35,956 nt of DNA from positions 1-35,956 of IMG/VR virus record IMGVR_UViG_3300044858_001379; one strand, given 5' to 3'. Of this stretch, positions 655 to 34,513 are shown piece after piece. The DNA comes from a virus. The notes beneath the pieces were generated by a model. It was not told the origin of the DNA, ran no database searches, and was given only the letters and a program-made list of their open reading frames with translations. Position 1 is the stretch's first letter. Each line of letters begins with the position of its first letter. A program made the position numbers and the translations under genes.

Positions 655-920
655 AAATCTATCCATTAGCAGACACACCACCAACAAAAGAACGTGCCAC
701 CCTGCACCACTTCGTTGTCACCTACGACACAGAACTAGGCAAGTGGTATCACAACGCAGACCTAGAAGAAGATGTATTTCCTCACGGGACTATCTTCAAC
801 TGGCTGTCAGGTGAATGGTTGAACGGGTATCTAGGTGACGGAAAGTTCGTTGAAGGTGAAGAACAAAACTGTTGGGACTTGAACACCGCCATCTTCCACC
901 TGAACAAACCGAAAGCATGA
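651..920 (+). CDS. Hypothetical protein (89 aa)
   Basis: I place the start at the ATG at 651, which overlaps the previous stop as ATGA and has AGGGAG about 8 bases upstream. A longer frame reaching back to 552 would overlap the membrane micro-protein almost completely and is less likely. The 89-aa product is rich in aromatic and acidic residues (several Trp, Tyr, His), suggesting a small globular fold. No family is recognised. It overlaps the next gene by ATGA (917-920). Confidence 0.68.
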   Translation: MKIYPLADTPPTKERATLHHFVVTYDTELGKWYHNADLEEDVFPHGTIFNWLSGEWLNGYLGDGKFVEGEEQNCWDLNTAIFHLNKPKA

Positions 921-1192
921 ACAGACTGACCGTCAAATATAAACTGCACAAACTACGCACCGCACAAAACAAAACTCTGAAACCCCCAAGGGTTCTGTTT
1001 GTGGTAGTGAGACTGATAGGGAAACGGGAGTACGGGTACTGGCGTGGCTCAGAACGCAACAAAGGAACCACCTTCACCCCGAACCCTGACCTAGCATCGA
1101 AGTACCGTACAGAGCAACAAGCACAAGCAAACGCAGATAACAGCATGTTGTGGCGACACTGCAATTACAGGGTCAAGCAACTCAAAAAATAA
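917..1192 (+). CDS. Small basic hypothetical protein (91 aa)
   Basis: The start at 917 overlaps the previous stop by ATGA; an in-frame ATG at 872 lies inside the preceding gene and is less likely. The 91-aa product is basic and beta-rich, with a central stretch of Val/Phe/Leu (about residues 25-35) and a Tyr/Trp/Gly motif after it, then an Asn/Gln-rich C-terminal helix ending in lysines. It is the last gene before a terminator. The composition would fit a nucleic-acid-binding protein, but no family is recognised. Confidence 0.65.
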   Translation: MNRLTVKYKLHKLRTAQNKTLKPPRVLFVVVRLIGKREYGYWRGSERNKGTTFTPNPDLASKYRTEQQAQANADNSMLWRHCNYRVKQLKK

Positions 1193-1215
1193 TCTGCTAA
1201 CCTAGAAAGTGAACT

Positions 1216-1264
1216 GCCCCATTCCGCAAAGGTTTCCCCTTCCCTTGCGTTGAGTGGGGCTTTT
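1216..1264. terminator. Terminator between convergent gene blocks
   Basis: GCCCCA at 1216-1221 pairs with TGGGGC at 1255-1260, and inside it CGCAA pairs with TTGCG, giving a two-tier hairpin followed on the plus strand by TTTT. It lies exactly between the last plus-strand gene (stop at 1192) and the end of the minus-strand WhiB gene (1267). It should end the plus-strand transcript and may also hinder the opposing one. Confidence 0.6.
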
Positions 1265-1266
1265 CG

Positions 1267-1524
1267 TTATCTCCGACCAGCCCGTGCGTCACGCTGACGC
1301 GGAGTCAAACCACCAAACATACCGTACCTACGTATCTCATTCTGCTCTGCTTCCATAGCGAACTCTAAACATTTGGTACGAACAGAACACCTACCACAAA
1401 TCTTCTTCGCTTCATCGAACAGTCCTGCATGGTTCACACCGATAGGAACTTCAGGGAAAAAGATGTCACCGTCCATGCTACGACACGCTGCTTCGTCATA
1501 CCAGCCCAGATATTGTAGTTTCAT
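1267..1524 (-). CDS. whiB: WhiB-family iron-sulfur transcriptional regulator
   Basis: The 85-aa protein has the WhiB cysteine pattern C14-X28-C43-X2-C46-X5-C52, which in this family ligates a 4Fe-4S cluster, then a G-M-F-G-G turn near residue 68 (usually GVWGG or GIWGG) and a basic C-terminal tail that in WhiB proteins contacts DNA. WhiB proteins bind the primary sigma factor and reprogram transcription; the mycobacteriophage TM4 homologue interferes with host WhiB2 and causes superinfection exclusion. A similar role here is inference. It overlaps the upstream gene by 4 bases. The family's restriction to actinobacteria and their phages is the best host evidence in the window. Confidence 0.93.
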   Translation of the reverse strand: MKLQYLGWYDEAACRSMDGDIFFPEVPIGVNHAGLFDEAKKICGRCSVRTKCLEFAMEAEQNEIRRYGMFGGLTPRQRDARAGRR

Positions 1525-1727
1525 TTTCGTTTTCCCCTTCGAGGTTGTTCGTTTGCATAAAGTTTTTTATGGTAATGACACATGCACGGGCATCCTTCTA
1601 TCTCGAAGTCTGTCCATATCGTTACCGCATTTTTGATTGTTCCGCAATGCGGGCAGATGCCCATAGGTTTATCAAAAGAAATGTCGGCTGTCAAATCGGT
1701 GCGTTCAACACGAACATGCTCACCCAT
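1521..1727 (-). CDS. Small zinc-ribbon-like protein (68 aa)
   Basis: The protein carries C-P-H-C-G followed about 19 residues later by C-P-C-M-C-H, a cysteine/histidine arrangement typical of a small zinc-binding ribbon, and ends in a basic tail. I choose the ATG at 1727, which slightly overlaps the stop of the small coiled-coil gene upstream; an in-frame ATG at 1760 gives 79 aa but overlaps that gene by about 40 bases. Its stop overlaps the WhiB start. It resembles the product of 1918-2121 in cysteine layout. A DNA- or protein-binding role is likely but unproven. Confidence 0.7.
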   Translation of the reverse strand: MGEHVRVERTDLTADISFDKPMGICPHCGTIKNAVTIWTDFEIEGCPCMCHYHKKLYANEQPRRGKRK

Positions 1728-1833
1728 GATGTAACTCGCGCATCGTTGCGAGTAGTTCACCCTTCAACTGTTCAATGATAAGTTCCAACTCTGCTATCTG
1801 TTGGCGTAGTTCTTGTGTCAGTTCAGTCGTCAT
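1720..1833 (-). CDS. Micro-protein, predicted coiled coil (37 aa)
   Basis: An ATG at 1831-1833 preceded by GAGGAGTGGA, a good ribosome-binding site, opens a 37-aa frame ending at TGA 1720-1722. The product is nearly all helix-forming, with Leu/Ile spaced in heptads (LRQQIAELELIIEQLKGELL region), so it probably forms a short coiled coil. It overlaps the next gene by 8 bases. It is short, but the strong Shine-Dalgarno sequence and regular heptads argue for a real gene. Function unknown. Confidence 0.55.
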   Translation of the reverse strand: MTTELTQELRQQIAELELIIEQLKGELLATMRELHHG

Positions 1834-1917
1834 CTTCCACTCCTCTTTCCCCACAAAACGGGGGTGTTGGTATCGGTGTGCGACATGCACAAGGGTTGTT
1901 GCGTCTACCTAAACTGG

Positions 1918-2121
1918 TCATGCTGTTTCCATGATGGTGTAATCGGCGTGAGACATTTTCAACATGCGTCCTGTTACATCTAACGCTATCCACGTTGGGG
2001 CATCAGGGTCACATAAACATCCCATGAGACGTACCTTGTTATAGCACACGGTCAGCCCACATTTGTTACAACGAACCTGTGTTATCTGTTCCACTGTGCT
2101 TCCCGTACCATAGCGAAACAT
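1918..2121 (-). CDS. Small zinc-ribbon-like protein (58-67 aa)
   Basis: The product contains C-N-K-C-G and, about 15 residues later, G-C-L-C-D, again a CxxC...CxC zinc-binding layout, followed by a beta-rich stretch. The ATG at 2121 overlaps the upstream gene by 40 bases. A GTG at 2092-2094 overlaps the upstream stop by only 13 bases, has GGGAAG just before it, and gives a 58-aa product; that start is at least as likely. Function unknown. About 85 bases without a clear gene separate it from the coiled-coil micro-protein. Confidence 0.65.
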   Translation of the reverse strand: MFRYGTGSTVEQITQVRCNKCGLTVCYNKVRLMGCLCDPDAPTWIALDVTGRMLKMSHADYTIMETA

Positions 2122-2381
2122 CCCAAGTACCCTGCCGCATCAACGAGACTGTCATGTGACCAGCGTCCTGCTTCCTGTGCCGTCCTGAGACGTGAAAGTT
2201 TGACAGAAACCATGAACATAATTGCCTGCTCAACGGTGAGATGTACGCCTGTTACTGCTTCGAAGATGTCACGGGTCTGTGTGTAGTCCTCTAACGGGTG
2301 TGCGTATTCATCGTGGCGGTCGCCTGTGATGAGGTTGTGTGCTTCTAAAAGTATTTCTGCGCCATCAGTTGATGTTGTCAT
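2082..2381 (-). CDS. DUF6378-like protein
   Basis: The helical protein carries the pattern I associate with DUF6378: an ILLEAHNLITGDRHDEYAHP segment, a central E-Q-A-I-M-F-M...K-L-S-R-L helix and a final D-A-A-G-Y-L motif. The conserved D/E and K/R residues recall MazG-like nucleotide pyrophosphohydrolases, so a role in nucleotide metabolism is possible but unproven. The start at 2381 has GGAGGA (complement of 2391-2396) at ideal spacing; a longer frame to 2423 lacks such support. It overlaps the upstream gene by 17 bases. Confidence 0.75.
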   Translation of the reverse strand: MTTSTDGAEILLEAHNLITGDRHDEYAHPLEDYTQTRDIFEAVTGVHLTVEQAIMFMVSVKLSRLRTAQEAGRWSHDSLVDAAGYLGCFAMVREAQWNR

Positions 2382-2616
2382 TGAAAGGGTTCCTCCATAA
2401 TGCTGGTGAATAATTTGATTCAATTGCTTCTTTGTGCTCTCGTGATTCGTAGCATCGCATCATATGGATGCAAGGGTCAGAGCCATCCTCGAACTCTGCT
2501 TCTTCTGTGATGGACATAGGTATCCCGTCATGTGTTGTGCACACTGGCGGAGATACATAGCCTGCACGTATGCCTATCTCTAACCATGTCTCAAAGTCGA
2601 ACGATACGAGTTCCAT
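2365..2616 (-). CDS. Conserved actinophage-type hypothetical protein (83 aa)
   Basis: The 83-aa protein has the pattern W-L-E-I-G-I-R-A-G-Y...P-V-C-T-T-H-D-G, then an acidic E-E-A-E-F-E-D-G-S-D-P-C-I-H stretch. I associate this kind of sequence with small hypothetical proteins common in actinobacteriophages. Two cysteines and several His could bind a metal. It starts one base inside the SSB stop, so both are co-transcribed. The function of the family is not known to me. Confidence 0.75.
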   Translation of the reverse strand: MELVSFDFETWLEIGIRAGYVSPPVCTTHDGIPMSITEEAEFEDGSDPCIHMMRCYESREHKEAIESNYSPALWRNPFNDNIN

Positions 2617-3014
2617 CAGAACGCTTCTTCGTCACCGAGGAACGGTAGCCCACCCAACTTCTGTGTCACTTGCTTCATGTTCTGCTCTGTCTTGTCAGCA
2701 AACACAGCGTTGAAACGCATTGTCAAACCTACTTCGTCAGCCAAGATTTTGGTTGTCCAAACTTTCGTGCCATCTTTCTCATAGGAAGAGATGTCTAGTT
2801 TGCCCATGACTAGGACACGTGAACCCTTCTCGATGGATGCTGCTGCGTGCTCTGCCATCTGTCCGAAGACGGTGACGTTGTGCCATGTGGTTTGTTTCTT
2901 TTCATCTTTGCCTGATGTTGTGGCAACAGTGAAGTTACCTACTGCTACCCCACCTGCACTGTATTTCAGTTCGATGGGTTTGCCTGCGTTGCCAATGATT
3001 GTTATGTTGTTCAT
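2616..3014 (-). CDS. ssb: Single-stranded DNA-binding protein
   Basis: The 132-aa protein matches bacterial SSB: an OB-fold starting MNNITIIGNAGKPIEL, the V-A-V-G-N-F-T-V-A-T strand, a W-H-N-V-T-V-F-G-Q-M-A-E motif near residues 44-55, and G-S-R-V-L-V-M-G-K-L followed by a Y-E-K-D-G turn. A short acidic tail ending D-E-E-A-F replaces the usual DDDIPF tip that recruits partner proteins. It coats single-stranded DNA during replication and recombination and sits near the annealing protein and exonuclease genes. The start overlaps the preceding stop as TAATG. Confidence 0.95.
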   Translation of the reverse strand: MNNITIIGNAGKPIELKYSAGGVAVGNFTVATTSGKDEKKQTTWHNVTVFGQMAEHAAASIEKGSRVLVMGKLDISSYEKDGTKVWTTKILADEVGLTMRFNAVFADKTEQNMKQVTQKLGGLPFLGDEEAF

Positions 3015-3172
3015 TATTTGCTTCTTTCTTTTAGTGGAAATATGTTTGTTGCGTTACTGTTGTTGGAACGTTTCGTGCATCGGTGTGTTGGTGGTTCGAT
3101 AACACGGACGTATGTGTATAGCCGCATACCGCATTGGTCGCAAAGCCATTCTGTCTTGGTGCTTCCCTTCAT
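3014..3172 (-). CDS. Small Cys-containing protein (52 aa)
   Basis: An ATG at 3170-3172 opens a 52-aa frame that stops at 3014-3016, overlapping the SSB start by one base (TAATG). It contains W-L-C-D-Q-C-G, then V-R-V-I-E-P-P-T-H-R-C, a pattern seen in small zinc-ribbon-like actinophage proteins, and a basic Asn/Ser-rich tail. No clear Shine-Dalgarno sequence precedes it. Function unknown; the CxxC...C motif and exact junction with ssb support it. Confidence 0.6.
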   Translation of the reverse strand: MKGSTKTEWLCDQCGMRLYTYVRVIEPPTHRCTKRSNNSNATNIFPLKERSK

Positions 3173-3184
3173 GGTTTGACTATA

Positions 3185-3658
3185 TCAGGGGGCTTGTATA
3201 GCCCACGGTCCCCAACCCCACCCGTATCTGTCCATCCCATACTGATGGATGGCAAGCCCTGCTGTGAGACAGATTCGTGGGATGAACAGGTCGGATGGTT
3301 TCAACAGAATGTTCTGCCGTCTCAACCATCCAGTCCAACTGCCATTGACCTGAACTAAGCAACGGCTCCCCCCATTGGGGTCTTGTTTGTTCCATGCTGT
3401 GCTGTCCCCTCTGCTCTCTCTGTAAATCACGTAGTCCAATGTTTCTAAATCTTCTTCAGCCCAACCGACTTCCCGTGCCAAAGCCCACCACTGTGGTGAT
3501 AACGCTGTGTCTGGTATTGGTGGGGTGGGGATGTGTTCCCTGATGTTGCGAATGTTCGCGGTCGACGATGGGTTCCCTTCGGCTGGCGCTTCCGCCATTA
3601 CTGCTGATGCCCCTATAAACATGAATCCTATGAGTATTGTGCTTGCACGTTTCAACAT
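3185..3658 (-). CDS. Secreted lysozyme-like (transglycosylase-fold) protein
   Basis: I choose the ATG at 3658 because it has AGGAG upstream and begins a classic signal peptide (MLKRASTILIGFMFIGASA...); the longer frame to 3859 overlaps the next gene. After a Pro-rich linker, a domain with Y-R-E-S-R-G-D-S (candidate catalytic Glu81), then D-P-N-G-G-S-R-C-L-V-Q-V-N-G-S-W and a C-terminal A-I-H-Q-Y-G...W-G-P-W resembles the lysozyme-like/SLT fold of secreted actinobacterial muralytic enzymes. Cys100 and Cys130 could form a disulfide. It lies in the replication block, far from the endolysin, and might act on the wall from outside. Enzyme activity is inferred. Confidence 0.8.
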   Translation of the reverse strand: MLKRASTILIGFMFIGASAVMAEAPAEGNPSSTANIRNIREHIPTPPIPDTALSPQWWALAREVGWAEEDLETLDYVIYRESRGDSTAWNKQDPNGGSRCLVQVNGSWTGWLRRQNILLKPSDLFIPRICLTAGLAIHQYGMDRYGWGWGPWAIQAP

Positions 3659-3666
3659 TGTTTCTC

Positions 3667-4104
3667 CTAATCGTAGGTGGATACTGTAAGCAACTCCTTC
3701 AGTTGTTCTGGGTATATGAGGAAACCTTTCGCTGGGTTGTCGGAGTGTTGCGCCGCAATGCGTACTGGTAGAACAGTGTGATTGGCTTTGATGTAGCGGC
3801 GTAATCTGCTGGTTTCTATTATAACAAATGCTGATGGTGCAAACAAATACACCCACCATTTCGCTTTACTTACAGCAATCCCTGACGGTTTCCACCCTGT
3901 GTTACGTGGGTTTTGTTCAAACTCTACGAACATACGTCCGTTGCGGTAACGGTCATACTTTACTTCGAATGAGCCGCCACTTAAATCAGAAAGAAACTGT
4001 CTAACAAGTTCTTCGCCTTCATGTCCGAACGCTAAATCTTTTGTGAAGTCAAACTGTTTAATGTCATGCGATGGTACATATCCTTCGGTGCGTTCAACTG
4101 TCAT
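3667..4104 (-). CDS. PD-(D/E)XK-like nuclease-fold protein
   Basis: The protein has G-H-E-G-E-E-L-V-R-Q-F-L, then F-E-V-K-Y-D, then M-F-V-E-F-E-Q-N followed by S-G-I-A-V-S-K-A-K-W-W. This order (Glu on helix 1, EVK-D, E-x-E, then a W-W helix) matches small phage proteins assigned to the PD-(D/E)XK nuclease-like fold. It could be an endonuclease or a resolvase-type protein, but no family is certain. The start is ambiguous: ATG at 4104 or 4116. It overlaps the end of the small gene upstream. Confidence 0.7.
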   Translation of the reverse strand: MTVERTEGYVPSHDIKQFDFTKDLAFGHEGEELVRQFLSDLSGGSFEVKYDRYRNGRMFVEFEQNPRNTGWKPSGIAVSKAKWWVYLFAPSAFVIIETSRLRRYIKANHTVLPVRIAAQHSDNPAKGFLIYPEQLKELLTVSTYD

Positions 4105-4273
4105 CACGCATAGCATCTTGATAGCGCTTCAATGCTCTGTGCATAGGAGCCTCATCACCTGTTGGTTCAAGCCATGCTTCGTAAAGTTCTGTGGCAATTT
4201 CTTTCCACAAAACAATCTCATCATCAAACTTGGTTATCAAGTCGTATGCTTCGTTCAGTTCGCTGTCGCTCAT
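4094..4273 (-). CDS. Small acidic helical protein (59 aa)
   Basis: An ATG at 4271-4273 overlaps the upstream stop (TGATG) and opens a 59-aa frame ending at TGA 4094-4096. The product is acidic and helical (MSDSELNEAYDLITKFDDEI...), with W-K-E-I-A and a basic M-H-R-A-L-K-R-Y helix near the end. No domain is recognised. It sits between two nuclease-like genes and may be a small partner of one of them, but this is only context. Confidence 0.6.
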   Translation of the reverse strand: MSDSELNEAYDLITKFDDEIVLWKEIATELYEAWLEPTGDEAPMHRALKRYQDAMRDDS

Positions 4274-4608: not shown

Positions 4609-4774
4609 GTGCCCACTCCTCTGCCAGTAGTTGACGGAACAGTTTGCTTCTACCAATGCCACGTTCTTTGCACAGTTCAGCAATGTTTTCCATCTGGATG
4701 GTGGTCAACCTGAGCGACACCATCGCAGTGGAACGGTACTTACCTGACGGGTCTACGGTACGTGAAGCCGCCAT
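4589..4774 (-). CDS. Ribbon-helix-helix DNA-binding protein (61 aa)
   Basis: The 61-aa protein has a beta strand (M-V-S-L-R-L-T) followed by two predicted helices (IQMENIAELCKERG, SRKLFRQLLAEEW-like), the pattern of CopG/Arc-type ribbon-helix-helix repressors. Such proteins bind DNA as dimers and often autoregulate. It starts one base inside the stop of the annealing-protein gene and ends 20 bases inside the nuclease gene. It is a candidate ligand for the inverted repeat at 6456-6479, but this is inference. Confidence 0.7.
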   Translation of the reverse strand: MAASRTVDPSGKYRSTAMVSLRLTTIQMENIAELCKERGIGRSKLFRQLLAEEWARVEGTR

Positions 4775-5418
4775 TAGTTACCACCTCGCAGGCTGGTGAA
4801 CGCATCACGCAACAACGGTAGTTGTGACTGCAAGATTTGTCCTTCCCAGTTCAACTTTGCTTTCGATGCAACAATCGCAGGGTCCAAATTAACCTTGTCG
4901 CACGCATCAACAAACTGTTTCACCTGTTGCTGTGTGAGAGCAGAATCTTCTGCTGGTTCCACTGGTGCAGTTGGCTTCTCTACCACTGGTGCTTTCGGTG
5001 ATTTCTGCACAGGGATAGATGCAGGCTTGGATGTGTCATCCCATTCTTGTTTCGTCCACAACGACAGGCAGATACCGAAACGCATTGCGGAGTTACGTAG
5101 GAAATCTCCGATGAGTTCTTTATCTACGTCAGCCTTGTCATGTTTGACTGTGCCAACACCAATCATGTCTTTGCCGTGCACTGTGAGGATGCCCCACATC
5201 ACTGCCATACCGTTTACAACGGTGATTGCTGGTCGACCATTCTCCCAACCACATGGTTGCCATGACCACAACGGGTCAATCTCGATAAGGATTTTGGTGA
5301 TGTCGGCATGACCCACGAAATCGAGTTGTGTGCCGCCACGTGGGAGTTTGCCCACAATGTTTTTATCTGGTACCGCATACTTGGTGAGGATGTCGGCTAA
5401 CTGCTGTGATGTTTCCAT
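4774..5418 (-). CDS. Single-strand annealing protein (Sak/Rad52/Erf-like)
   Basis: The 214-aa protein has a core with K-L-P-R-G-G-T-Q-L-D-F-V-G-H-A-D-I-T-K, then D-P-L-W-S-W-Q-P, G-M-A-V-M-W-G-I-L-T-V-H-G, and I-G-D-F-L-R-N-S-A-M-R-F-G-I-C-L-S-L-W-T-K. This matches the Rad52/Sak/Erf-like family of phage annealing proteins, which pair complementary single strands made by an exonuclease. A Pro/Ala-rich linker (about 150-175) separates a small C-terminal helical domain. The ATG at 5418 has AAGGAG upstream; an earlier ATG at 5475 overlaps the exonuclease gene. It is paired with the YqaJ-type exonuclease immediately upstream. Confidence 0.83.
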   Translation of the reverse strand: METSQQLADILTKYAVPDKNIVGKLPRGGTQLDFVGHADITKILIEIDPLWSWQPCGWENGRPAITVVNGMAVMWGILTVHGKDMIGVGTVKHDKADVDKELIGDFLRNSAMRFGICLSLWTKQEWDDTSKPASIPVQKSPKAPVVEKPTAPVEPAEDSALTQQQVKQFVDACDKVNLDPAIVASKAKLNWEGQILQSQLPLLRDAFTSLRGGN

Positions 5419-5468
5419 TTCTTTCTCCTTCGTTAGTTTGTTTGATGTGTCTTTGAAACGATGATGGT

Positions 5469-6428
5469 CTACCATCGTTCACCCTTCAAAAGCAAGGTAC
5501 GGTTTGTCACCTGCTTCGAATACTTTTCTGCAATCGCTGGTTCCATTTGCTTCAACGTTTTAATATCCAACGATGACCACGACTTACCCTTCCATGTGGC
5601 AACGACTGTGCCATCGACTGTAGCAATTTCGTTTGGTCCAATCAAATCGCACAGTTCTGCTTTCAATCTGTCTTCCATCTCACCGTAAGATTTCAGTTCT
5701 GACTTCACATGTTTCAGTTGTGCTATCAGTTCTGTGGCAGTGGAAGGCAGTTCAATGCTGGTGTGTTCTACCTTTTGGTAGCGGGCAGTGATGGTTTCAT
5801 ACGACCAGTAGACACCCTCTGGTGTGATACCAAGGTCGATGTTTGCCAGCCATTGTCCGACCTTTGTGCAGTGTTCTTCTTTCTCAGCGTCAGTGATGGT
5901 TTGCACATAGATGTGAAGCACCATTGTGGAGTCGAAGATTGCCCATGTGATTTGGTCTACATCAGCACAGATGGCTTGTTGGATTCCTTGTATGCGCCAG
6001 TAGTCGGGGAGTGTGCCTTGCCATTCACGGTTTGATGTTTTGATTTCTAGGATTTGTCGTCCGTTGTCATCTTCTATGAAGCCGTCGAGGGTGGCTATCA
6101 TGCGTGCACCGTTGTCTGATTCTGCTACAAACATTTCTTCTGGTGTGCCGAAGTTGATGCCTGTCTTGTCGATTGCCCACTCCAACACGAATGGTTCGAG
6201 ACGGTTGCCGCGTTCCATTGCAGGGTTGGGTGGTATAGGTGCGGGGGGCACGTCACCTAAAAGTTCTGCCGCATATTTTTCTGCGGGTACGAATGGGTGC
6301 AGTCCGTAGATTGCTGCGACTGCTGATGCTGATACTCGTTTACGTTTCTGTTCATCCCAGAAGCGGTCGTTCAACCAGTCTTGTCCGCCGTGAGTGTTTT
6401 TGGTAATGCGGTAGCGTTTGATTTGCAT
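5469..6428 (-). CDS. YqaJ-type (RecB/lambda-exonuclease-like) exonuclease
   Basis: The 319-aa protein shows the YqaJ viral recombinase pattern: R-V-S-A-S-A-V-A-A-I-Y-G-L at 31-43, M-E-R-G-N-R-L-E-P at 71-79, L-D-G-F-I at 114-118 (metal ligand Asp115), L-E-I-K-T at 127-131 (Glu128, Lys130) and R-I-Q-G-I-Q-Q at 145-151. It should degrade one strand of DNA ends to feed the annealing protein next door. A coiled-coil-like stretch at about 225-265 precedes a C-terminal beta/helix region. It is the first gene after the promoter at 6461-6489, with GAAGGGA as ribosome-binding site. Confidence 0.9.
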   Translation of the reverse strand: MQIKRYRITKNTHGGQDWLNDRFWDEQKRKRVSASAVAAIYGLHPFVPAEKYAAELLGDVPPAPIPPNPAMERGNRLEPFVLEWAIDKTGINFGTPEEMFVAESDNGARMIATLDGFIEDDNGRQILEIKTSNREWQGTLPDYWRIQGIQQAICADVDQITWAIFDSTMVLHIYVQTITDAEKEEHCTKVGQWLANIDLGITPEGVYWSYETITARYQKVEHTSIELPSTATELIAQLKHVKSELKSYGEMEDRLKAELCDLIGPNEIATVDGTVVATWKGKSWSSLDIKTLKQMEPAIAEKYSKQVTNRTLLLKGERW

Positions 6429-6455
6429 TATTGTTTCCCTTCGTTGCTTGTTGAA

Positions 6456-6479
6456 GTATCACCATACAGGCTGTGATAC
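6456..6479. promoter_or_regulatory. Inverted repeat, probable repressor operator
   Basis: GTATCAC (6456-6462) and GTGATAC (6473-6479) form a perfect 7-base inverted repeat with a 10-base spacer. It covers the -10 hexamer and most of the spacer of the minus-strand promoter in front of the exonuclease gene. Such placement is typical of an operator where a dimeric regulator blocks RNA polymerase. The regulator is unknown; the ribbon-helix-helix protein encoded at 4589-4774 is one candidate. Confidence 0.55.
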
Positions 6480-6489
6480 CGTATGTCAA
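6461..6489 (-). promoter_or_regulatory. Sigma70-type promoter for recombination block
   Basis: On the minus strand TTGACA (complement of 6484-6489) is followed after 17 bases by TATGGT (complement of 6461-6466), a perfect -35 with a reasonable -10 at ideal spacing. It points at the exonuclease start at 6428. It likely drives the exonuclease-to-WhiB block. Confidence 0.65.
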
Positions 6490-6493
6490 GTAC

Positions 6494-6754
6494 CTATCCG
6501 AGAATTTTTATATCACGCACCATGCCAACAGGGATATGGATTGCGTGGATACCTTCATCTTTGCACAGTGTCTGCCACAACGTCATATGTTTCTCTTTTG
6601 AACCAGGGTCGCCGACAGGTATATGAAAACCAACAGATGCAACGATGCACTCGCCGTCATCTTCGTAATCTGGTAGGTCTAGCCATCCGCCTTCAGACAG
6701 GTGAGTATCAGCCCACGTCACAAGGACCATCGGGTATCTCTGACCACCTTCCAT
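6494..6754 (-). CDS. Conserved hypothetical phage protein (86 aa)
   Basis: This 86-aa protein has M-V-L-V-T-W-A-D-T near the start, then G-W-L-D-L-P, C-I-V-A-S-V-G-F and a C-terminal I-H-I-P-V-G-M-V-R-D-I-K-I-L, a beta-rich pattern I associate with small phage proteins of unknown function. It may start at 6754 or at the in-frame ATG eight codons later. It ends just before the promoter/operator region, so it belongs to the transcript upstream of it. Confidence 0.68.
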   Translation of the reverse strand: MEGGQRYPMVLVTWADTHLSEGGWLDLPDYEDDGECIVASVGFHIPVGDPGSKEKHMTLWQTLCKDEGIHAIHIPVGMVRDIKILG

Positions 6755-6758
6755 AGCA

Positions 6759-6911
6759 TCAGTGTAGGGCAGGGGTGCGGTCAGGTGACGGAGCCGCCAT
6801 GAGGAGACGGTCTAGTTCTTGTAATGCGCGAAAGAATTCGTCTTCTTCTGGGCGTGATACACGGGCTGTGACTAGGTATTTCCTTATTGTGTATAGCGTT
6901 TCGCGTGTCAT
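6759..6911 (-). CDS. Small helical hypothetical protein (50 aa)
   Basis: An ATG at 6909-6911 opens a 50-aa frame ending at TGA 6759-6761, four bases before the next gene. The product is helical and mixed-charge (MTRETLYTIRKYLVTARVSR..., then E-E-D-E-F-F-R-A-L-Q-E-L-D-R-L-L), with a Pro-rich end. No strong Shine-Dalgarno is seen. It fills the space between the glycosyltransferase and the 86-aa gene. Function unknown. Confidence 0.5.
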   Translation of the reverse strand: MTRETLYTIRKYLVTARVSRPEEDEFFRALQELDRLLMAAPSPDRTPALH

Positions 6912-6950
6912 AGGACTCGCTAAGTTACCACCGAAACGAACTGTTAGTCG

Positions 6951-6971
6951 ATTATTTTGGGTGATTTTCTA
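6951..6971. repeat. Direct repeat copy 1 flanking glycosyltransferase
   Basis: A 21-base sequence here matches 7684-7704 at 20 of 21 positions in the same orientation. It covers the last codons and stop of the glycosyltransferase. The other copy covers the same codons (L-E-N-H-P-K-stop) of the membrane-protein gene upstream in transcription. Confidence 0.85.
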
Positions 6972-7680
6972 ATGAAACACTCACAAAATTCCATCCATTT
7001 GCTTGACTTGAAAAGTCTATCGGTTTCGCACCAACAGCCCCACTCCAAGCCCAAATATATTCACCCATCACCAACGGGAAATATGAAAAATAATTATCTT
7101 GATGAATATAACCAACGGTAATCGTAGGTACTGGCATCACCTTAATGGTATCTATACCCAAACCAGCCCAAGCCAAAGGATACCTTGTGTCTAATTTATC
7201 TAAGCCCAAACTCAGGTTCATGGCATCTCTGCGCCACACAGTAGAAGTAATTGTTGTCGAAGCAACAAGAATAGATTTGTCGTTGAGGGAGTCCATGTAG
7301 TCACACATTTTCCCTGAGAACCCTGCGCCAACTTCACGACTGTTCGCAGTCCAATGCAACACCCGACCGACACCATCAAGCATAGGCAACAACATCTCAA
7401 TAGTCCCAGGCAACATTGTGTCATCGTCACCAAAAACCCAAACATATTTACCGCTACCTTGCGTAACCCCACGAAACACGTTCGGGTCGCCGTCAATGTT
7501 CTTTAGCCTTTTACTGTATTGAACCTGCGGGAACTTTCGGGCAAACGGTTCAGCGAAACCATCTGGGTCATTGTCGCTAACAATCAGTTCAACCCCATCA
7601 ACAATCTGTGGGACTATTGATTCTAAACACGGACCGATATCAAGTCTTTTGAATGTGGGAATATAAATTGTTAACAGCAC
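6952..7680 (-). CDS. GT2-type glycosyltransferase
   Basis: The 242-aa protein has the GT-A fold signatures of family 2: T-I-Y-I-P-T-F-K-R at 4-11, V-S-D-N-D-P-D at 34-40, and W-V-F-G-D-D-D at 81-87, the metal/nucleotide-sugar binding motif. It lacks membrane segments and should transfer a sugar from a nucleotide donor in the cytoplasm, perhaps onto cell-surface precursors, DNA or virion proteins. The last residues (L-E-N-H-P-K) are identical to those of the preceding gene, because the gene sits between two copies of a 21-base direct repeat. Its bases look more AT-rich than the neighbours, fitting a recently acquired cargo gene. Confidence 0.85.
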   Translation of the reverse strand: MLLTIYIPTFKRLDIGPCLESIVPQIVDGVELIVSDNDPDGFAEPFARKFPQVQYSKRLKNIDGDPNVFRGVTQGSGKYVWVFGDDDTMLPGTIEMLLPMLDGVGRVLHWTANSREVGAGFSGKMCDYMDSLNDKSILVASTTITSTVWRRDAMNLSLGLDKLDTRYPLAWAGLGIDTIKVMPVPTITVGYIHQDNYFSYFPLVMGEYIWAWSGAVGAKPIDFSSQANGWNFVSVSLENHPK

Positions 7681-7683
7681 TAT

Positions 7684-7704
7684 ATTATTTTGGATGATTT
7701 TCTA
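7684..7704. repeat. Direct repeat copy 2 flanking glycosyltransferase
   Basis: This 21-base segment is the second copy (20/21 identical) of 6951-6971, 733 bases away. It encodes the C-terminal L-E-N-H-P-K and stop of the small membrane protein. Recombination between the copies would remove the glycosyltransferase exactly and leave the membrane protein intact. Confidence 0.85.
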
Positions 7705-7960
7705 GGTGGTCAGACACTTTTTCTGACACTTTATCCAACTTGATTTCAGTCCTGTTAATGCCTTTGTTTATGTACTTCAACATGCCCATGACTACATCGT
7801 GGTCACGGCGGTTTTCTTTACGGAACTGGGAAACAACGACGGTCAGGAGACCGAAAGCACCAGTAACAGCAGCAGCGAGAACAAGGCTCCACCCTGCGTC
7901 CACAGCGTCATACCGTCTTTGCTGCGAGCCACGCCTTAACGCGCTCAGGGGTGTCGTCAC
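7685..7960 (-). CDS. Small membrane protein, possible holin or spanin-like
   Basis: The product has one strong hydrophobic segment (about residues 23-44, SLVLAAAVTGAFGLLTVVV) followed by a charged coiled-coil-like tail. Its place right after the endolysin gene and its shape fit a lysis-cassette membrane protein such as a holin. The ATG at 7960 gives 91 aa with a 53-base overlap into the endolysin gene; a GTG at 7903, just after the endolysin stop, gives 72 aa and may be the true start. The last codons lie in direct repeat copy 2. Confidence 0.65.
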   Translation of the reverse strand: MTTPLSALRRGSQQRRYDAVDAGWSLVLAAAVTGAFGLLTVVVSQFRKENRRDHDVVMGMLKYINKGINRTEIKLDKVSEKVSDHLENHPK

Positions 7961-8471
7961 CTGCTACATAACGAAGATGCCACGGCTCAGATGGGAGTGC
8001 TTCCCATGAGAAACCGAATGACACAGCGTTGTCAGCCAACCATCGCAAACGTTTCGGTTCAGTCGAGTTCTTAATATCAATAGCAATACCGAGGTTGTGC
8101 TTCGAGGTACCAGGGACCGCCATCATCGCATTACCTTTTTTGAGGTAGTACGGGATGCCTTTGTAGACGCGAGGCTTCTCGCCTTTCACTACTTCGGTGG
8201 TGTATCGCTGGTAGAAACCGTACTCTTGTACCGCAAGTGTGCGATATGTGTCCGCTGGGCTAGTTGGAGATAAATCAATTCCTTCTGCGTTTGCTGCCGC
8301 ATCCATCGCCTCGTATGCATCGGCGGCACAATGATGCAAGATACCTTTGCCTTCAATCGGGCGAAGAAGTTTTGGACCAAGCGCACCAGGTTTAGCGTTC
8401 TTCAGATGTGAACAAAGTTTGACTGGAATGATTGGCAGTTTAGAGATGTCTACCTTTTTCATTTTTGCCAT
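7908..8471 (-). CDS. M15-family peptidase endolysin (D,D-carboxypeptidase-like)
   Basis: The 187-aa protein carries the metal-site motifs of peptidase family M15 (VanY/L-alanyl-D-glutamate peptidase type): S-K-H-N-L-G-I-A-I-D-I at 123-133 with His125 and Asp132, and E-P-W-H-L-R-Y at 162-168 with Glu162 and His165. Such enzymes cut peptidoglycan peptides and act as phage endolysins. There is no signal peptide, so export would need the holin-like membrane proteins encoded on either side. It starts as TAATG with the preceding membrane gene. Confidence 0.9.
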   Translation of the reverse strand: MAKMKKVDISKLPIIPVKLCSHLKNAKPGALGPKLLRPIEGKGILHHCAADAYEAMDAAANAEGIDLSPTSPADTYRTLAVQEYGFYQRYTTEVVKGEKPRVYKGIPYYLKKGNAMMAVPGTSKHNLGIAIDIKNSTEPKRLRWLADNAVSFGFSWEALPSEPWHLRYVAGDDTPERVKAWLAAKTV

Positions 8472-8728
8472 TACTCTGTTACTTCTTCAGCCTTCTTCTT
8501 GACCGAGCCTGCACCTGCGAAAGCAAGTTCAATCTCTTCCTTGCTGAGTGAACCATCAACAGAGAAACGTAGCAACTTCTCGATAACTTGTGCACATGCC
8601 ATAAGTCCTGCAAGGGCAGCAGATTTCCAAAGTTCTACACCGATGAGCGCACCACCAGCGATAGCAGCCAATGCGGATGAGCCGAATAGTGCGCCGATAC
8701 GAAACAGGATGTTCTGAAGTTTTGCCAT
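8471..8728 (-). CDS. Holin-like membrane protein (85 aa)
   Basis: The start at 8728 (MAKLQNILFRIGALFGSSA) is chosen because the longer frame to 8860 covers another small membrane gene. Two adjacent hydrophobic segments (about 10-30 and 36-50) are followed by an acidic, Lys-rich tail, the layout of small phage holins. It lies directly before the endolysin gene with a one-base overlap, which strongly supports a role in timed membrane permeabilisation. The precise holin class cannot be told. Confidence 0.72.
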   Translation of the reverse strand: MAKLQNILFRIGALFGSSALAAIAGGALIGVELWKSAALAGLMACAQVIEKLLRFSVDGSLSKEEIELAFAGAGSVKKKAEEVTE

Positions 8729-8733
8729 TGCTA

Positions 8734-8895
8734 TTAGTCTTTCTGTCCGAGAGTGATTACCGAGTGTACAACAATCGCTATACCTGTGACCAGTAACGCT
8801 TGACGGAGGGTCGGTCCCGACAGGGTGATAAGAACCAGCCCTGTTCCAGCCCATGTCCACGTGTTGTCACCAAGGTACGAAAGTATCTTTTTCAT
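8734..8895 (-). CDS. Small two-helix membrane protein (53 aa)
   Basis: An ATG at 8893-8895 overlaps the stop of the large Thr-rich protein (TAATG) and opens a 53-aa frame ending at 8734, five bases before the holin-like gene. After MKKILSYLGDNTWTW it has two hydrophobic segments (about 17-26 and 34-49) joined by a Pro/Arg turn. It is a good candidate for a second holin or an antiholin. The frame is short but exactly fits the gap and has clear membrane character. Confidence 0.6.
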   Translation of the reverse strand: MKKILSYLGDNTWTWAGTGLVLITLSGPTLRQALLVTGIAIVVHSVITLGQKD

Positions 8896-10307
8896 TATCG
8901 TTTCATTCTAGTTGATGCTGCTGTGAGGGTTGCCCCCGCTGCGATAGCGATGAGGGTTTGGCGTTCGGATACAGGAATCTTGCTGTCTATTGGGACATAG
9001 GTGCCGAGTCCTTCAGAGAAGATGTCTACGGAATCTTCAAACGCTTCTTTGACTTCGGTTGGTGCATCGGTGACGGCTTCGGCTAGGGCTTCTAGTTGGG
9101 TGTTATCTAATTCGGTTACGTCTAATGCTTCAAAGACTTGGGTGGCTTGGTCGGATGTGAGTACGGCTAGGGCGGCTGGGCTGGATGCGATGGCTGTGGC
9201 TTGTTCTTGGGTTGGTTCTTCTTCCAAGATGGCTTCGATGAGTTGTTCAGCCTGTTCGGAGGTGAGTTCTTCTAGGGCTTCTGTGAGGGCTTCTACGGTT
9301 TCTATGGTGTCTAGGATGGTTTCTAGTTCTTCGACGCTTAGAGGGGCTTCTGGTGCGTCTGGGAGGGTGTCTGGGGGTGCAGGCTCAGTGTCAGGTGGGG
9401 CAGGTTCGGTGTCCTCAACTGGGGGTACGGTATCGGGTGGCAGGTCGGTAGTCTCTGGTGCTTCAGGTTCCGTATCAGGAGGGTCTAATGGGAGTGTTTC
9501 TTCAACTGGTTCTGTCTCTGGTGGACTGGGTTCCGTATCTGGTGGCGCTGGCTCTGTTGTGGGCGGTTGCTCAACCGTTGCAGGTGGCTGCGCTGGCGGT
9601 GGTGATACGGGTTCTGTGGTGGTTGTGGTTTCAACAACCGTCGAGGTGGTCGTAGTTGTTGTCGTTGTTGTTGACTGTTCTGGCATGGTCGGCTCTGGTG
9701 CTAACGATGTGCTGGTCGGTACGGAAGAAGTAGTAGTTGACTCCACTGTTGTAGTCACAGCCACAGTTGTTGTGGACACATCCGTTGTAGTAGTGGATTC
9801 CTGAACAGTTGTTGTGGACACTTCGGTGGTGGTTGTTGTTGCGGTGAACTCCCACAACGACAGGTTGCTGATAGTCAGATGCCCTGGTGAGCAACAGGTA
9901 TCTGTCGAGTATTGGCGGAACGTGAAAATGTCACCTTCGTTTACGGGTACAGACTTGGTTCCAGTCGCATTGTTCTGCTGAGTGATAAGCGTGTAGATGC
10001 CATTGATGCCGTACTGCGGCGGGTCATACACCCAACCATCAGTTGTCTGATACGACCAAGTGAAATCAACCGTGTTTACATCGGCGGGGATTGTGGTTTC
10101 AATCTTCACCCAATGCGCTGCACCTGAACATCCGTTCTGGTCGGGGCCGTGCAAGGTGATGGTGTTGTCTACAACTTCGACTGAGCCACCGCAGGCTGCT
10201 GACTGGCTGTATTCCCAGTCTCCTAAAACGTCGGCTTTAACAGGCTTCGCATAGATTGCGAATAGTGCTACGGGTATGAATATCAGCCAACGGGTATTGC
10301 GACCCAT
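8895..10307 (-). CDS. Secreted mucin-like protein with Thr- and Pro-rich repeats
   Basis: The 470-aa protein begins with a signal peptide (MGRNTRWLIFIPVALFAIYA, likely cut after V-K-A), then a beta-sandwich-like domain of about 130 residues with paired Cys. A long Thr/Ser-rich stretch (about 155-230, runs of Thr) and a Pro-rich stretch with repeats of P-P-D-T-E-P (about 235-325) follow. A helical acidic domain with S-V-E-E-L and T-S-E-Q-A repeats comes next, and a C-terminal weakly hydrophobic segment ends in R-M-K-R. It looks like an extended cell-surface or virion-surface protein, perhaps anchored at both ends. Location between tail and lysis genes could mean adhesin, superinfection barrier or lysis helper. 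Function unknown. Confidence 0.8.
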   Translation of the reverse strand: MGRNTRWLIFIPVALFAIYAKPVKADVLGDWEYSQSAACGGSVEVVDNTITLHGPDQNGCSGAAHWVKIETTIPADVNTVDFTWSYQTTDGWVYDPPQYGINGIYTLITQQNNATGTKSVPVNEGDIFTFRQYSTDTCCSPGHLTISNLSLWEFTATTTTTEVSTTTVQESTTTTDVSTTTVAVTTTVESTTTSSVPTSTSLAPEPTMPEQSTTTTTTTTTSTVVETTTTTEPVSPPPAQPPATVEQPPTTEPAPPDTEPSPPETEPVEETLPLDPPDTEPEAPETTDLPPDTVPPVEDTEPAPPDTEPAPPDTLPDAPEAPLSVEELETILDTIETVEALTEALEELTSEQAEQLIEAILEEEPTQEQATAIASSPAALAVLTSDQATQVFEALDVTELDNTQLEALAEAVTDAPTEVKEAFEDSVDIFSEGLGTYVPIDSKIPVSERQTLIAIAAGATLTAASTRMKR

Positions 10308-15678: not shown

Positions 15679-15832
15679 GTTTCATTCTCTTTGCGGCAGC
15701 GTTATCAACAAGGTTTGGATATGGGCGACCTGCCTTTTTCGCACGAGCCTTGGCAGCAGTCTTTTGTGCTGGTGTTAATGGGGTGGATTTTTTGTTTGGG
15801 TTTTTTTTGTCCCAAAATTCTTTCTTTTTCAC
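15671..15832 (-). CDS. Small basic protein (53 aa), GTG start
   Basis: The GTG at 15830-15832 overlaps the preceding TGA (GTGA) and has AGGAG 8 bases upstream, so the 53-aa product V-K-K-K-E-F-W-D-K-K-N-P is the likely gene; the in-frame ATG at 15982 lies far inside the glycosyltransferase. It continues L-T-P-A-Q-K...A-K-K-A-G-R-P-Y-P-N-L-V-D-N-A-A-A, a pattern familiar from small basic phage proteins adjacent to DUF6321-like genes. Three basic small genes in a row point to a shared DNA- or RNA-binding role in the virion. Confidence 0.72.
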   Translation of the reverse strand: MKKKEFWDKKNPNKKSTPLTPAQKTAAKARAKKAGRPYPNLVDNAAAKRMKRG

Positions 15833-16953
15833 AGCAAAACTCCTGATTCCTTTAACACGTTCCTGACATTCAACACTACAGTATACGTTTCCCCTGGAAC
15901 CATGCTCACATAATGACTGCCAATGGTGGCTTGGACACGGCGTGACACTTGTATTTCGCAGGTGGGTTCCAAGGGTTTCCAATCTGGGGTAATAAGTTTC
16001 GGGGATGGTTTGACGATTTGTAGGAGTTGGTCGGCTGACGTGTTCCAGTTGAACGCTTCTGTTTGGGGTGCTTTCAAATATGCTTGCTTACGGTATTTGT
16101 CACGGTTCAGGTAGATGTCTTTGATGGCTTCGGCTAATGCTTCCTGGTCGGGTTCGTCCCAGTCGCCCATGTTCTGCCAAACACCTTTGGCGGTGGGCAC
16201 TGATGTGGTGGGGATTCTGTGAGTGGCAAGATTCGAGAACTCTCTGTGACCGTGGGCATCAGAGATGATGGTTGGTACACCAGCAGAGATTGCTTGAAGT
16301 GGCATCAGCCCGAACCCTTCACCTCTGGATACGGATATGAAACAGTCTGCCGAGCGAACCAGGTCGCGTTCCTGTTCGACGGTTAACCATTCACGGTGCA
16401 CGATGACGTTGGGGAACTCTAGGTCTTTGGGTGCGAACAGATGTGGTGGAACTATTTTGATGTGGAGTTCGGTGTCTGGTAGTTGAAGTTTGTTGAATAC
16501 TTCTAGTACTACGTCGAGTCCTTTGCGGTACCATTCGGAGCCGCCGCACAAAATTTTGAACTTGTTGTTTGCTGGTCGGTCTGCTGGATGCCACATGGTT
16601 CGGTCTACGCCGAGGGGTATCATGTGCACTTCGTCGTGGAATTGTGAGAATAGTTCCCAGTTGTGCAGCGATGGGACTATGATTTTGTTGAAGTTTTGTA
16701 GGTAGTCTGAGAATTCTGGTGGCAACCAGTTTGTTTCCCACATGGTTAGCAGGTGTGGTACTTGTGTTTTGTGCCAGCCTTTTATCAGGTTTGGTCTTAA
16801 AGCGAAAACAACATGTTCTGCATCTTCGACAAGTGTTACCTTTTCTGATAACGCATTGCGTAGTCCGACAACCATTTTGCCGTAACCAACTTTTTCGATG
16901 TTGACACCAACAAGGTTTAGATAGTTGGAAGTATTCCTGTTTCCACTTGCCAT
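15829..16953 (-). CDS. GT4-type glycosyltransferase with C-terminal beta domain
   Basis: The 374-aa protein has a GT-B fold: N-terminal Rossmann half with V-G-Y-G-K-M and W-E-T-N-W-L, K-I-I-V-P-S, I-P-L-G-V-D at about 110-115, then K-I-L-C-G-G-S-E-W-Y-R-K-G-L-D and the donor-binding S-R-G-E-G-F-G-L-M-P-L-Q-A-I-S-A-G-V-P. It lacks membrane segments. The last 45 residues (C-E-I-Q-V-S-R-R...) form an extra beta segment not part of the catalytic core. It sits among virion genes, so it may glycosylate virion or host-surface molecules. It overlaps the upstream gene by 37 bases. Confidence 0.85.
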   Translation of the reverse strand: MASGNRNTSNYLNLVGVNIEKVGYGKMVVGLRNALSEKVTLVEDAEHVVFALRPNLIKGWHKTQVPHLLTMWETNWLPPEFSDYLQNFNKIIVPSLHNWELFSQFHDEVHMIPLGVDRTMWHPADRPANNKFKILCGGSEWYRKGLDVVLEVFNKLQLPDTELHIKIVPPHLFAPKDLEFPNVIVHREWLTVEQERDLVRSADCFISVSRGEGFGLMPLQAISAGVPTIISDAHGHREFSNLATHRIPTTSVPTAKGVWQNMGDWDEPDQEALAEAIKDIYLNRDKYRKQAYLKAPQTEAFNWNTSADQLLQIVKPSPKLITPDWKPLEPTCEIQVSRRVQATIGSHYVSMVPGETYTVVLNVRNVLKESGVLL

Positions 16954-17192
16954 CCTTCTTGTGCTCTTTTCTCTACGTTGGCAGCACCGTCAATCCTCTT
17001 TGGTTGTAATCCGTTTGCGCGAAGACGTTTGTATGCTGGCATATCTTTATTCCAGTTGCGTTCTGTTGTGTTGACTGCGGCTACCTTAGCCCCACGGGTG
17101 GTGGTGGTGTTGGTTCCCATTCTTACCCCTGCGACTCTGCATCCGAAACATCCTTCAACGTCTAAGTTGGGGTGTGTTTCTTGGTGTTTCAT
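16917..17192 (-). CDS. Small conserved actinophage-type protein (91 aa)
   Basis: The protein starts M-K-H-Q-E-T-H-P-N-L-D-V-E-G-C-F-G-C-R-V-A-G-V and later has R-N-W-N-K-D-M-P-A-Y-K-R-L-R-A-N-G-L-Q-P-K-R-I-D-G-A-A. I associate this paired motif (HPNLDVEGCFGC and QPKRIDG) with small hypothetical proteins near head genes of actinophages. The CxxC may bind metal. It overlaps the previous gene's stop by 4 bases. Function unknown. Confidence 0.72.
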   Translation of the reverse strand: MKHQETHPNLDVEGCFGCRVAGVRMGTNTTTTRGAKVAAVNTTERNWNKDMPAYKRLRANGLQPKRIDGAANVEKRAQEGWQVETGILPTI

Positions 17193-32936: not shown

Positions 32937-33824
32937 TTATACGACTGAAGGGTTGTTTTTGTTGTACTTCTTAGATGCTCGTTCTCTCAACAATCTTTCA
33001 ATAGCCTTTTCTCTGGTTGAGTCACGCAAAGGTGCACCCGCAAGTTTAAGTTCTTTTGCCAATTGGTTTTTGAAATCGCCGCCAGCAACAGGAACCTTTG
33101 CAACAATTCTTGCTGGGCTTTTAGAAAGAACCCAAGGAGGATTTTTAGGGTCAAGAGGGTTCCCTTTTGCCGCCATCTGGTTAACTAAACCAGCATTGCT
33201 TTCTTGATACTCCAAGTTTTTCAAACTCTTTTTAGGAAACTTCGCGATGATTGCCCCACCTTTTGGACCTGTGTACTGCTTGACGCTTCCTTCGAGATAG
33301 TCGGCGCTGCCGCTTCCTTTAAATTGTGGGTTGTATCCGAACACAACTTTTTCGGTTGGGGAGCCAGGGCTTCCTGCTTTTGGCATCAACTTGTTTCCAA
33401 TCAACTTTTCAAAATCTGGTGTTCCATGAACAAGAACTTTTTGACCTGTGACCTTGTTGCTGATTCGGGCTGGTAGACCAGTGCCAACCACGGCACCAAC
33501 GCCTCTTTGTAGGGCTTTCCCTGTGCCGTAACTGATAACTTCGGATGCTATTTGTAGTCCAGCAATTTTTGCTTGCTGTGTTACTGCTGCTTTGTAACCT
33601 TTGTTTTGGTAGGTTGCTGCACCTTTTGCTGCGGTTTGGGCGGCTATACCTAACGGTGTTGATTTGACTACGTTGAGCAGGTTGTTTGCTGCACGTTGCG
33701 GGGTGTTGAGTACAACTTTTTTAAAATCTGCAAGGTTGGAACCAGATGTGTCAGCCATCGCTTTTTGTGCGACGGGTTTACGTGCTTGGTTCTCTTTTGC
33801 TTTAGGGTCTTTCCTTGATGCCAT
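32937..33824 (-). CDS. LAD[FY]K-cassette protein 3, possible ART-like domain
   Basis: The 295-aa protein has a basic N-terminus ending D-T-S-G-S-N-L-A-D-F-K, a motif shared with the next two genes. A Gly/Ala-rich helical middle follows (about 60-120). Then comes a domain with V-L-V-H-G-T-P-D (about 128-135), K-V-V-F-G-Y-N-P, S-A-D-Y, then G-G-A-I-I-A-K-F, and a basic tail. The H-G-[TS]-P...VF.Y.P...S.DY...G...V/I.K order is shared with the 292-aa protein, and recalls ADP-ribosyltransferase-like folds (His-Gly-Thr at the NAD site). The activity is unproven. It sits just before terminase. Confidence 0.65.
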   Translation of the reverse strand: MASRKDPKAKENQARKPVAQKAMADTSGSNLADFKKVVLNTPQRAANNLLNVVKSTPLGIAAQTAAKGAATYQNKGYKAAVTQQAKIAGLQIASEVISYGTGKALQRGVGAVVGTGLPARISNKVTGQKVLVHGTPDFEKLIGNKLMPKAGSPGSPTEKVVFGYNPQFKGSGSADYLEGSVKQYTGPKGGAIIAKFPKKSLKNLEYQESNAGLVNQMAAKGNPLDPKNPPWVLSKSPARIVAKVPVAGGDFKNQLAKELKLAGAPLRDSTREKAIERLLRERASKKYNKNNPSVV

Positions 33825-33826
33825 GA

Positions 33827-34504
33827 TTATTTGTTCCTCAATGAATACAACGGTCCAAGAAGTGCTGCACCTTTAAGAACTCTTTTGCCTGTTTTAATAT
33901 CTTTAAGCATGTTCATGCCGCCTGCTGTCGCGCCGCGTGCTGCTGCGGTGGAGATTCGTGCTGCGTTGGCTTCTAGCCCTGTGAGGCGTGCAGCGGTTTG
34001 TGCTGGAGAAGCAAGTTGAGTTGAAGCCAAAGTTTTGCCGAACACAGTGTTTGAAATGTAGGTTCTGCCACCTTCACGAATTGACCCTAATCCTTTGGTT
34101 GCTGAAGTCCATGCGGCGTTCCCTGCGCCTTCAATGGCTGGTGCTACGTAACGTCCTAACAGTTTTGATGTTACTTTTCCTGTGGCAATAACGGGTATTG
34201 ACCCTGCTTTGGCTGGCAATGAGATACCGATGAGGGCTGCGTTAATTACGTTTCCTTTAGAAAGATTCGAACCAGCCAACGAGGTACCTAATGGCGTTGA
34301 ACTTCCAGCGAACATACCTTTGTCTGCGCCTTTAGGTGTTGTTCCAACATAACTTGGTCCTGAACCTTTAGCAACATACGTTTTTCCTGGGGAACCAATA
34401 GTTGCGGATGACACTGCGGCTGGTTTGTATTTTGCTTTGAAATCTGCAAGCGACATACCGCTAGTGTCTGATGTTGCTGCTGTCGATTTTTTCTTCGATG
34501 CCAT
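33827..34504 (-). CDS. LAD[FY]K-cassette protein 2 (no HG motif)
   Basis: The 225-aa protein starts M-A-S-K-K-K-S-T-A-A-T-S-D-T-S-G-M-S-L-A-D-F-K, the same N-terminal module as its neighbours, but then is low-complexity, rich in Gly, Ala, Ser and Thr, with a hydrophobic segment (I-N-A-A-L-I-G-I-S-L-P-A-K-A) and a basic end. It lacks the H-G-[TS]-P motif. It may be a scaffold or chaperone-like partner of the other two, or a membrane-interacting virion protein. Function unknown. Confidence 0.6.
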   Translation of the reverse strand: MASKKKSTAATSDTSGMSLADFKAKYKPAAVSSATIGSPGKTYVAKGSGPSYVGTTPKGADKGMFAGSSTPLGTSLAGSNLSKGNVINAALIGISLPAKAGSIPVIATGKVTSKLLGRYVAPAIEGAGNAAWTSATKGLGSIREGGRTYISNTVFGKTLASTQLASPAQTAARLTGLEANAARISTAAARGATAGGMNMLKDIKTGKRVLKGAALLGPLYSLRNK

Positions 34505-34513
34505 CAGTTAACC

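Follow-up and report, generated by a model that had tools for sequence, protein, structure and literature searches.

Gain of a glycosyltransferase gene behind a duplicated gene end in an actinophage-type genome: the probable history of a 733-base insert

The glycosyltransferase gene that stands between two 21-base direct repeats in the viral DNA analysed here (a stretch of 35,956 nucleotides, hereafter the window) belongs to a 733-base unit which was very probably gained, as a cargo gene at an empty site, by recombination with a phage of the type represented by a sister clade. The way in which a single cargo gene entered a phage genome is mostly deduced from one junction; in the present case the empty, the filled and a donor-like state are all available, which makes insertion and deletion distinguishable for one case.

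Along the minus strand the order is endolysin, a small membrane protein gene (mem), the glycosyltransferase (GT2), a 40-base spacer, two small ORFs, a RecE-like exonuclease and an annealing protein, so that the last two genes adjoin the slot:

7908-8471, minus strand: endolysin (VanY)
7685-7903, minus strand: mem, 72 aa, one transmembrane segment; phrog_32850, no assigned function; last gene of the endolysin-mem block, its 3' end being the repeat
7684-7704, no strand: repeat copy 1, which closes mem with its stop codon (minus strand TAGAAAATCATCCAAAATAAT), the same as the single copy of the empty genome L001
6952-7680, minus strand: GT2 glycosyltransferase ORF, 242 aa, PF00535; GTG start 4 bases past the mem stop
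6968-7683, minus strand: donor-like segment, a 716-base blastn match (88%) to the sister-clade contig L077
6951-6971, no strand: repeat copy 2, which closes GT2 with its stop codon (minus strand TAGAAAATCACCCAAAATAAT), the same as the single copy of the empty genome L003
6912-6951, minus strand: conserved 40-base spacer before the next ORF, untouched by the insertion
6759-6911, minus strand: small ORF (MTRETLY...), nearest ORF to the right of the slot in 50 of 50 contigs
6494-6754, minus strand: 86-aa ORF, two alleles, filled versus empty genomes
5469-6428, minus strand: RecE-like/YqaJ exonuclease (PF09588, 2.6e-14; phrog_434, 1.1e-61)
4774-5475, minus strand: single-strand annealing protein (phrog_3290, 1e-67)

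For mem the ORF lister gives a GTG start at 7960; its homologues and its overlap with the endolysin gene favour the GTG at 7903, which leaves one hydrophobic stretch.

The two repeat copies, ATTATTTTGGGTGATTTTCTA (6951-6971) and ATTATTTTGGATGATTTTCTA (7684-7704), agree at 20 of 21 bases and lie 733 bases apart from start to start. Read on the minus strand, both encode L-E-N-H-P-K and a stop, closing the mem ORF and the GT2 ORF; the earlier note had described the repeats around the glycosyltransferase gene and the C-terminus shared with the membrane protein in these terms, and sequence comparison bears out both. The variable base is T in copy 1 and C in copy 2, and both variants are present among empty genomes. 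The whole window holds two pairs of 21-mers with at most one mismatch, the second of them inside a glycine-rich low-complexity gene. In 60 simulated first-order Markov copies such pairs averaged 0.017 per 36 kb, 500 simulated 4-kb stretches contained none, and a chance origin of the repeat is ruled out by these simulations. A scan of all viral contigs for the repeat motif returned 13 stretches: four come from the window's species (L002, L123, L124 and L125, which are contigs of L002, L003, L004 and L001), and the other nine (L115-L122 and L126) match none of the twelve locus proteins and were excluded as unrelated.

Four relatives (L001, L002, L003 and L004; 91-96% mean identity over aligned parts) belong, as we judge from sequence, to the window's own phage species. 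Two of them, L001 and L003, have an exact empty site, with mem, a single repeat copy and the 40-base spacer following one another and nothing between; L002 and L004 carry the same insert as the window. A further scan with a spacer pattern turned up no additional close relative, and one with a pattern from the 3' end of GT2 returned contigs already known and no others. In a wider search the mem scan yielded 75 viral loci and the GT2 scan 40. The 78 loci with both flanking genes were merged by identical flanks into 50 distinct contigs, the window included and loci without either flank (e.g. L083, L087-L113) left aside. Forty of these are empty (33 with the 40-base spacer and 7 with a 44-base spacer), three are filled with the 733-base insert (773 bases, that is, 733 + 40), and seven belong to the sister clade and have GT2 together with a Zn-ribbon-like ORF at the slot (926-927 bases). 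Because 40 of 50 contigs are empty, outgroups included, the empty state is the older one.

The suggestion that GT2 is an exchangeable cargo gene is upheld: it is absent with the predicted joint in L001 and L003 and present in L002 and L004, contrary to the refuting outcome named in the earlier note, that no relative lacks the gene. Replacement of the gene found no example: no other single gene has been swapped in between the same two flanks among the surveyed contigs; the contents seen are GT2 alone or, in the sister clade, GT2 with the Zn-ribbon ORF. A different arrangement was observed in L005-L009, where the endolysin resembles that of the window and mem is 76-82% identical. Judging from the ORFs of L005 (region 783-3823), a different downstream gene set is joined straight after mem, and the 3' end of mem is therefore a module boundary.

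The donor-like state is found in the sister clade (L077-L086), in which a diverged mem and GT2 overlap at the mem stop (TAGTG). The window GT2 shares 82-88% DNA identity with seven sister contigs. Endolysin and mem reach only 49-56% (the endolysin comparison for L081 covers 151 bases only), the first right ORF with its spacer 67-69%, and the sequence further right 67-68%. The tails of the sister-clade GT2s read LEGK, LEKNRG, LEKSR or LEKSKG and never LENHPK, and no repeats of at least 13 bases surround GT2 in L077 and L085. Even the closest donor-like GT2 reaches no more than 88% identity, so the sequences compared do not include the true donor.

The breakpoints can be placed to within a few bases. 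Matches to the empty genomes end on the left at 7684 and resume on the right at 6974 (L001) or 6971 (L003). The donor-like part begins right after copy 1 and reaches into copy 2 by 4 bases, which makes the repeat 21 bases of recipient sequence present twice; as the donor-like sequence ends inside the right repeat, the C-terminal LENHPK of GT2 is borrowed from mem. Donor and recipient matches overlap by 4 bases at the right junction and by none at the left, where three extra bases, ATA, lie beside a shared CAAAATA. Given this lack of overlap, we regard the left junction as illegitimate and not a case of clean homology.

What could be the course of events behind such a structure? Gain in the window's lineage is the simplest reading, because the outgroups are empty, the repeats occur only in one clade of three near-identical inserts, and the sister copies show no such repeat. 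An ancestor of the window lineage would have recombined with a diverged sister-clade phage that had GT2 directly behind the homologous mem. One junction would have formed at the mem stop and GT2 start, the other inside the last GT2 codons through a short match (TAGA) to mem's own tail. The exchange would have returned into the recipient 21 bases before its exit point, so that the tail of mem was duplicated; the duplicated tail would supply the last residues and the stop of GT2, leaving the promoter-like spacer of the next operon intact. We infer the order of the two junctions, a coinfection by the two phages, and a machinery consisting of the phage's own RecE-like exonuclease and annealing protein. 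Window-type and sister-type contigs stand under one metagenome number twice (L133 and L083 in 3300005805, L134 and L077 in 3300046010).

Two other histories of the insert were weighed against this one. A 21-base stretch that is duplicated and derived from the recipient looks like a target-site duplication, as would be left by a mobile element using a transposase, an integrase or a homing nuclease. According to the ORF list and the family search, however, the insert is a single ORF with a GT2 domain, free of any recombinase or nuclease; its ends coincide with gene ends and short homology; of the sister-clade copies, L077 and L085 lack comparable repeats and L080 has only an unrelated 27-base pair (74%) in the surroundings of its GT2; and GT2 also occurs elsewhere between other genes. 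We consider such an insertion highly improbable. The same low standing is given to an ancestral GT2 behind mem that was lost from most lineages by deletion between tail repeats. The sister clade does have GT2 in the same place, but the ancestral scenario needs losses in all the lineages that the 40 empty contigs represent, with a spacer of 40 or 44 bases remaining every time, and leaves unexplained how GT2 can be 82-88% identical between clades whose neighbouring genes stand at 49-69%.

The conserved spacer bears on how the slot is read out. The 50 contigs contain 27 different spacers, with a TATCTT/TAACTT-like element 10 bases before the ATG in which TA and T are invariant; we read the spacer as the probable promoter of the next operon. 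A consensus scan for promoters of GT2 itself gave 4 promoter-like sites against 4.9 expected from shuffles, no better than chance, and a similar scan found no terminator-like site behind the gene. With its start 4 bases past the mem stop, GT2 is probably expressed as the last gene of the mem operon.

Once gained in one lineage, the insert would have passed between backbones of its species through ordinary homologous recombination. In the left 1.3 kb of the five contigs, 3 of the 47 sites that divide them two against three follow the presence of the insert; L002 groups with L004 at 14 sites, the window with L001 at 13, and 20 show other groupings. The right 1 kb differs: of its 63 informative sites, 58 set L001 and L003 apart from the three filled genomes, and these two also have a common spacer allele that differs from that of the filled genomes. 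The incongruent flanks reflect homologous exchange, in which GT2 and the right flank moved as one piece onto different left backbones. Among the right-flank sites, 38 of the first 40 listed lie 200-360 bases out, within the 86-aa ORF. As a separate observation, the two alleles of this ORF (6494-6754, minus strand) share 72% DNA identity in a 200-base bin and track the presence or absence of GT2 in the five contigs. Another allelic difference concerns a 59-aa ORF at 4094-4273: for the stretch 4106-4268 blastn finds no counterpart in L001 and L131; these two have 166 other bases there, an allelic replacement of a small gene.

The same flanks bear on the idea, raised in the earlier note, that recombination between the repeats switches GT2 on and off. 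Recombination by RecA or an annealing protein would in that case act on the repeats as a reversible cassette and maintain the two forms side by side within one population. If 733 bases were removed from the window, exactly GT2 would go, mem would stay and, as had been foreseen, the very joint of L001 and L003 would result; each variant of the variable repeat base is found among empty genomes; and an annealing protein and an exonuclease are encoded next to the slot. A phase-variable gene should show both states on one haplotype, however, and the filled and empty contigs differ in their downstream allele (n = 5, three filled and two empty, all that the window's species offers at the slot, and thus a thin population picture). 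With spacer and 86-aa ORF alleles unlike those of all three filled genomes, L001 and L003 are therefore not simple deletions of the sampled filled genomes. Moreover, 40 of 50 contigs are empty, distant outgroups among them, and regain from the empty state has no route except a new cross. On/off variation is accordingly not supported, and we hold it to be unlikely. Repeat-mediated deletion as such is possible, with no instance seen among the five contigs, and it is also possible that an older gain was followed by loss in L001 and L003 and a later exchange of the right flank.

The GT2 protein matches Glycos_transf_2 (PF00535) at 1.5e-8, with 35.2 bits against a curated Pfam cut-off of 23.3, and its acidic metal-binding motif GDDD (residues 84-87) is invariant in all 18 aligned sequences. 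Its GC content is 43.5% versus 48.6% for the window, and its GC3 0.41 versus 0.48-0.52 in six other genes. From a poor structure model (mean pLDDT 50.4) only the GT-A-like N-terminal half was used, which in a fold search resembles GT-A-type enzymes such as WrtF. In the GT2 tree the filled GT2s form one clade (100/99), and 12 of the 23 forks are open. Cellular genomes contributed 13 loci at 28-38% identity, mostly N-terminal matches of about 100 residues, and no close source among them. No annotated phage has a DNA match to the region 5469-10307. As to its use, GT2 likely modifies a glycan of the virion or of the host surface; the roles proposed for phage glycosyltransferases in PMC10202952 are DNA protection and superinfection exclusion. 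As a glycosyltransferase whose presence varies within a single phage species, GT2 is also a candidate for differences in host range or surface modification.

GT2 is also found at several sites between other genes and is therefore a travelling gene. In 14 of 84 loci of related phages it stands between a small ORF and a GT4-type glycosyltransferase; the 84 loci are those distinct after identical small-ORF copies were merged, and since the set was fetched partly with the window's GT4, the proportion is not a natural frequency. The window has both neighbours:

16917-17192, minus strand: small ORF that precedes GT2 at the other site, phrog_24600
15829-16953, minus strand: GT4-type glycosyltransferase, which follows GT2 in the same 14 loci

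These two genes overlap in the window with no GT2 between, so that the other site is empty. In L106, GT2 is placed before that small ORF. An unrelated phage (L097-L100) has common sequence around GT2, and in L099, the only one of the four whose neighbours are listed, the adjacent ORF is one that we take, from its N-terminus, to be DnaE-like.

Another gene of the window that appears to have been gained stands after the 3' end of the 2082-2423 gene:

1918-2121, minus strand: Zn-ribbon-like ORF

The name reflects paired cysteines read by eye, the family search having given no match. The window, L129, L131 and L133 have the ORF, and L134 and L135 do not (gap 1932-2076); by eye, over 90 bases each, no Zn-ribbon stands behind the upstream gene in eight outgroup or sister loci (L022, L028, L033, L012, L013, L114, L077 and L078, after L011 was dropped as too distant and L271 and L267 as re-fetched copies). 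Between the 3' ends of the upstream gene (TGGAACAGAT) and of the Zn-ribbon ORF (TGGAAACAGCAT) there is a weak match, perhaps fortuitous. A homologue adjoins GT2 in the sister clade, with 49% identity between the two types. It is tempting to regard the operon ends of these actinophages as general acquisition sites for foreign genes, an idea we find doubtful. If it were true, a foreign gene would be joined behind the last gene by annealing over a few bases, and re-entry upstream would duplicate the resident tail; each newcomer would gain an in-frame end and a stop, and the promoter of the next operon would survive. This phage species would then offer another example in the Zn-ribbon ORF, which L134 and L135 lack, and the tail repeat left in place would make a later clean loss of the gene possible.

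The architecture is already known from the mycobacteriophages Island3 and LRRHood; new are the donor-like clade and the direction. According to PMC3029335, the gene inserted in Island3 (gene 67/68) relative to Brujita has the same 3' end as the upstream gene (about 60 bp, 18 residues), and Brujita, which lacks the inserted gene, has a single copy of that end. Here, too, the 3' end of the insert repeats that of the upstream gene (21 bases, 20 of 21 identical), and the relatives without the gene, L001 and L003, have a single copy at a seamless joint. The Island3 case differs in that the partner was not known and insertion could not be told from deletion, whereas here the sister clade and the outgroups give the direction. 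The repeat is also shorter in our case, and it is probably the result of the exchange and not prior sequence common to donor and recipient. As to recombination through shared sequence, donor and recipient overlap by 4 bases on the right and 0 on the left, and both 21-base copies stem from the recipient. In the section on LRRHood (PMC3029335), a 1.35-kb insert of four genes, including a repressor, lies between 29-bp direct repeats whose sequence has no outside match, so that its acquisition could not be reconstructed there. The likeness lies in a cargo found in one phage, with flanking direct repeats whose sequence occurs once in close relatives, and in the position of one repeat at the end of the upstream gene; the difference lies in four genes there against a single GT2 ORF here. 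GT2 resembles a moron, as defined in PMC3029335, in being present or absent between genes that neighbour each other in relatives, but differs in having no promoter or terminator of its own in our consensus scan.

With freshwater actinophages such as the Planktophila phages E7 and F5 (PMC10202952), the window shares an actinophage-type genome, a WhiB gene and glycosyltransferases. Its capsid protein is 46.5% identical to that of OX376640/OX376641, but these two records, like the rest of the 50,697 phage records searched, have no protein match to this GT2. A broader, read-based account of variable regions in phage populations is that of metaviromic islands (PMC3909814). No description of this GT2 slot turned up in the searches made of open-licence papers. 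Duplication of a gene tail as seen here may serve as a searchable signature of recent gene gain.

Two further features of the window deserve mention. The WhiB gene (1267-1524, minus strand; PF02467, 5.1e-17) points to an actinobacterial host. Near the other end, three consecutive ORFs on the minus strand (32937-35392) have no Pfam match and a common N-terminal L-A-D-(F/Y)-K motif, whose DNA is identical at 19 of 21 bases at 34433 and 35333; they are possibly related virion proteins sharing an N-terminal tag.
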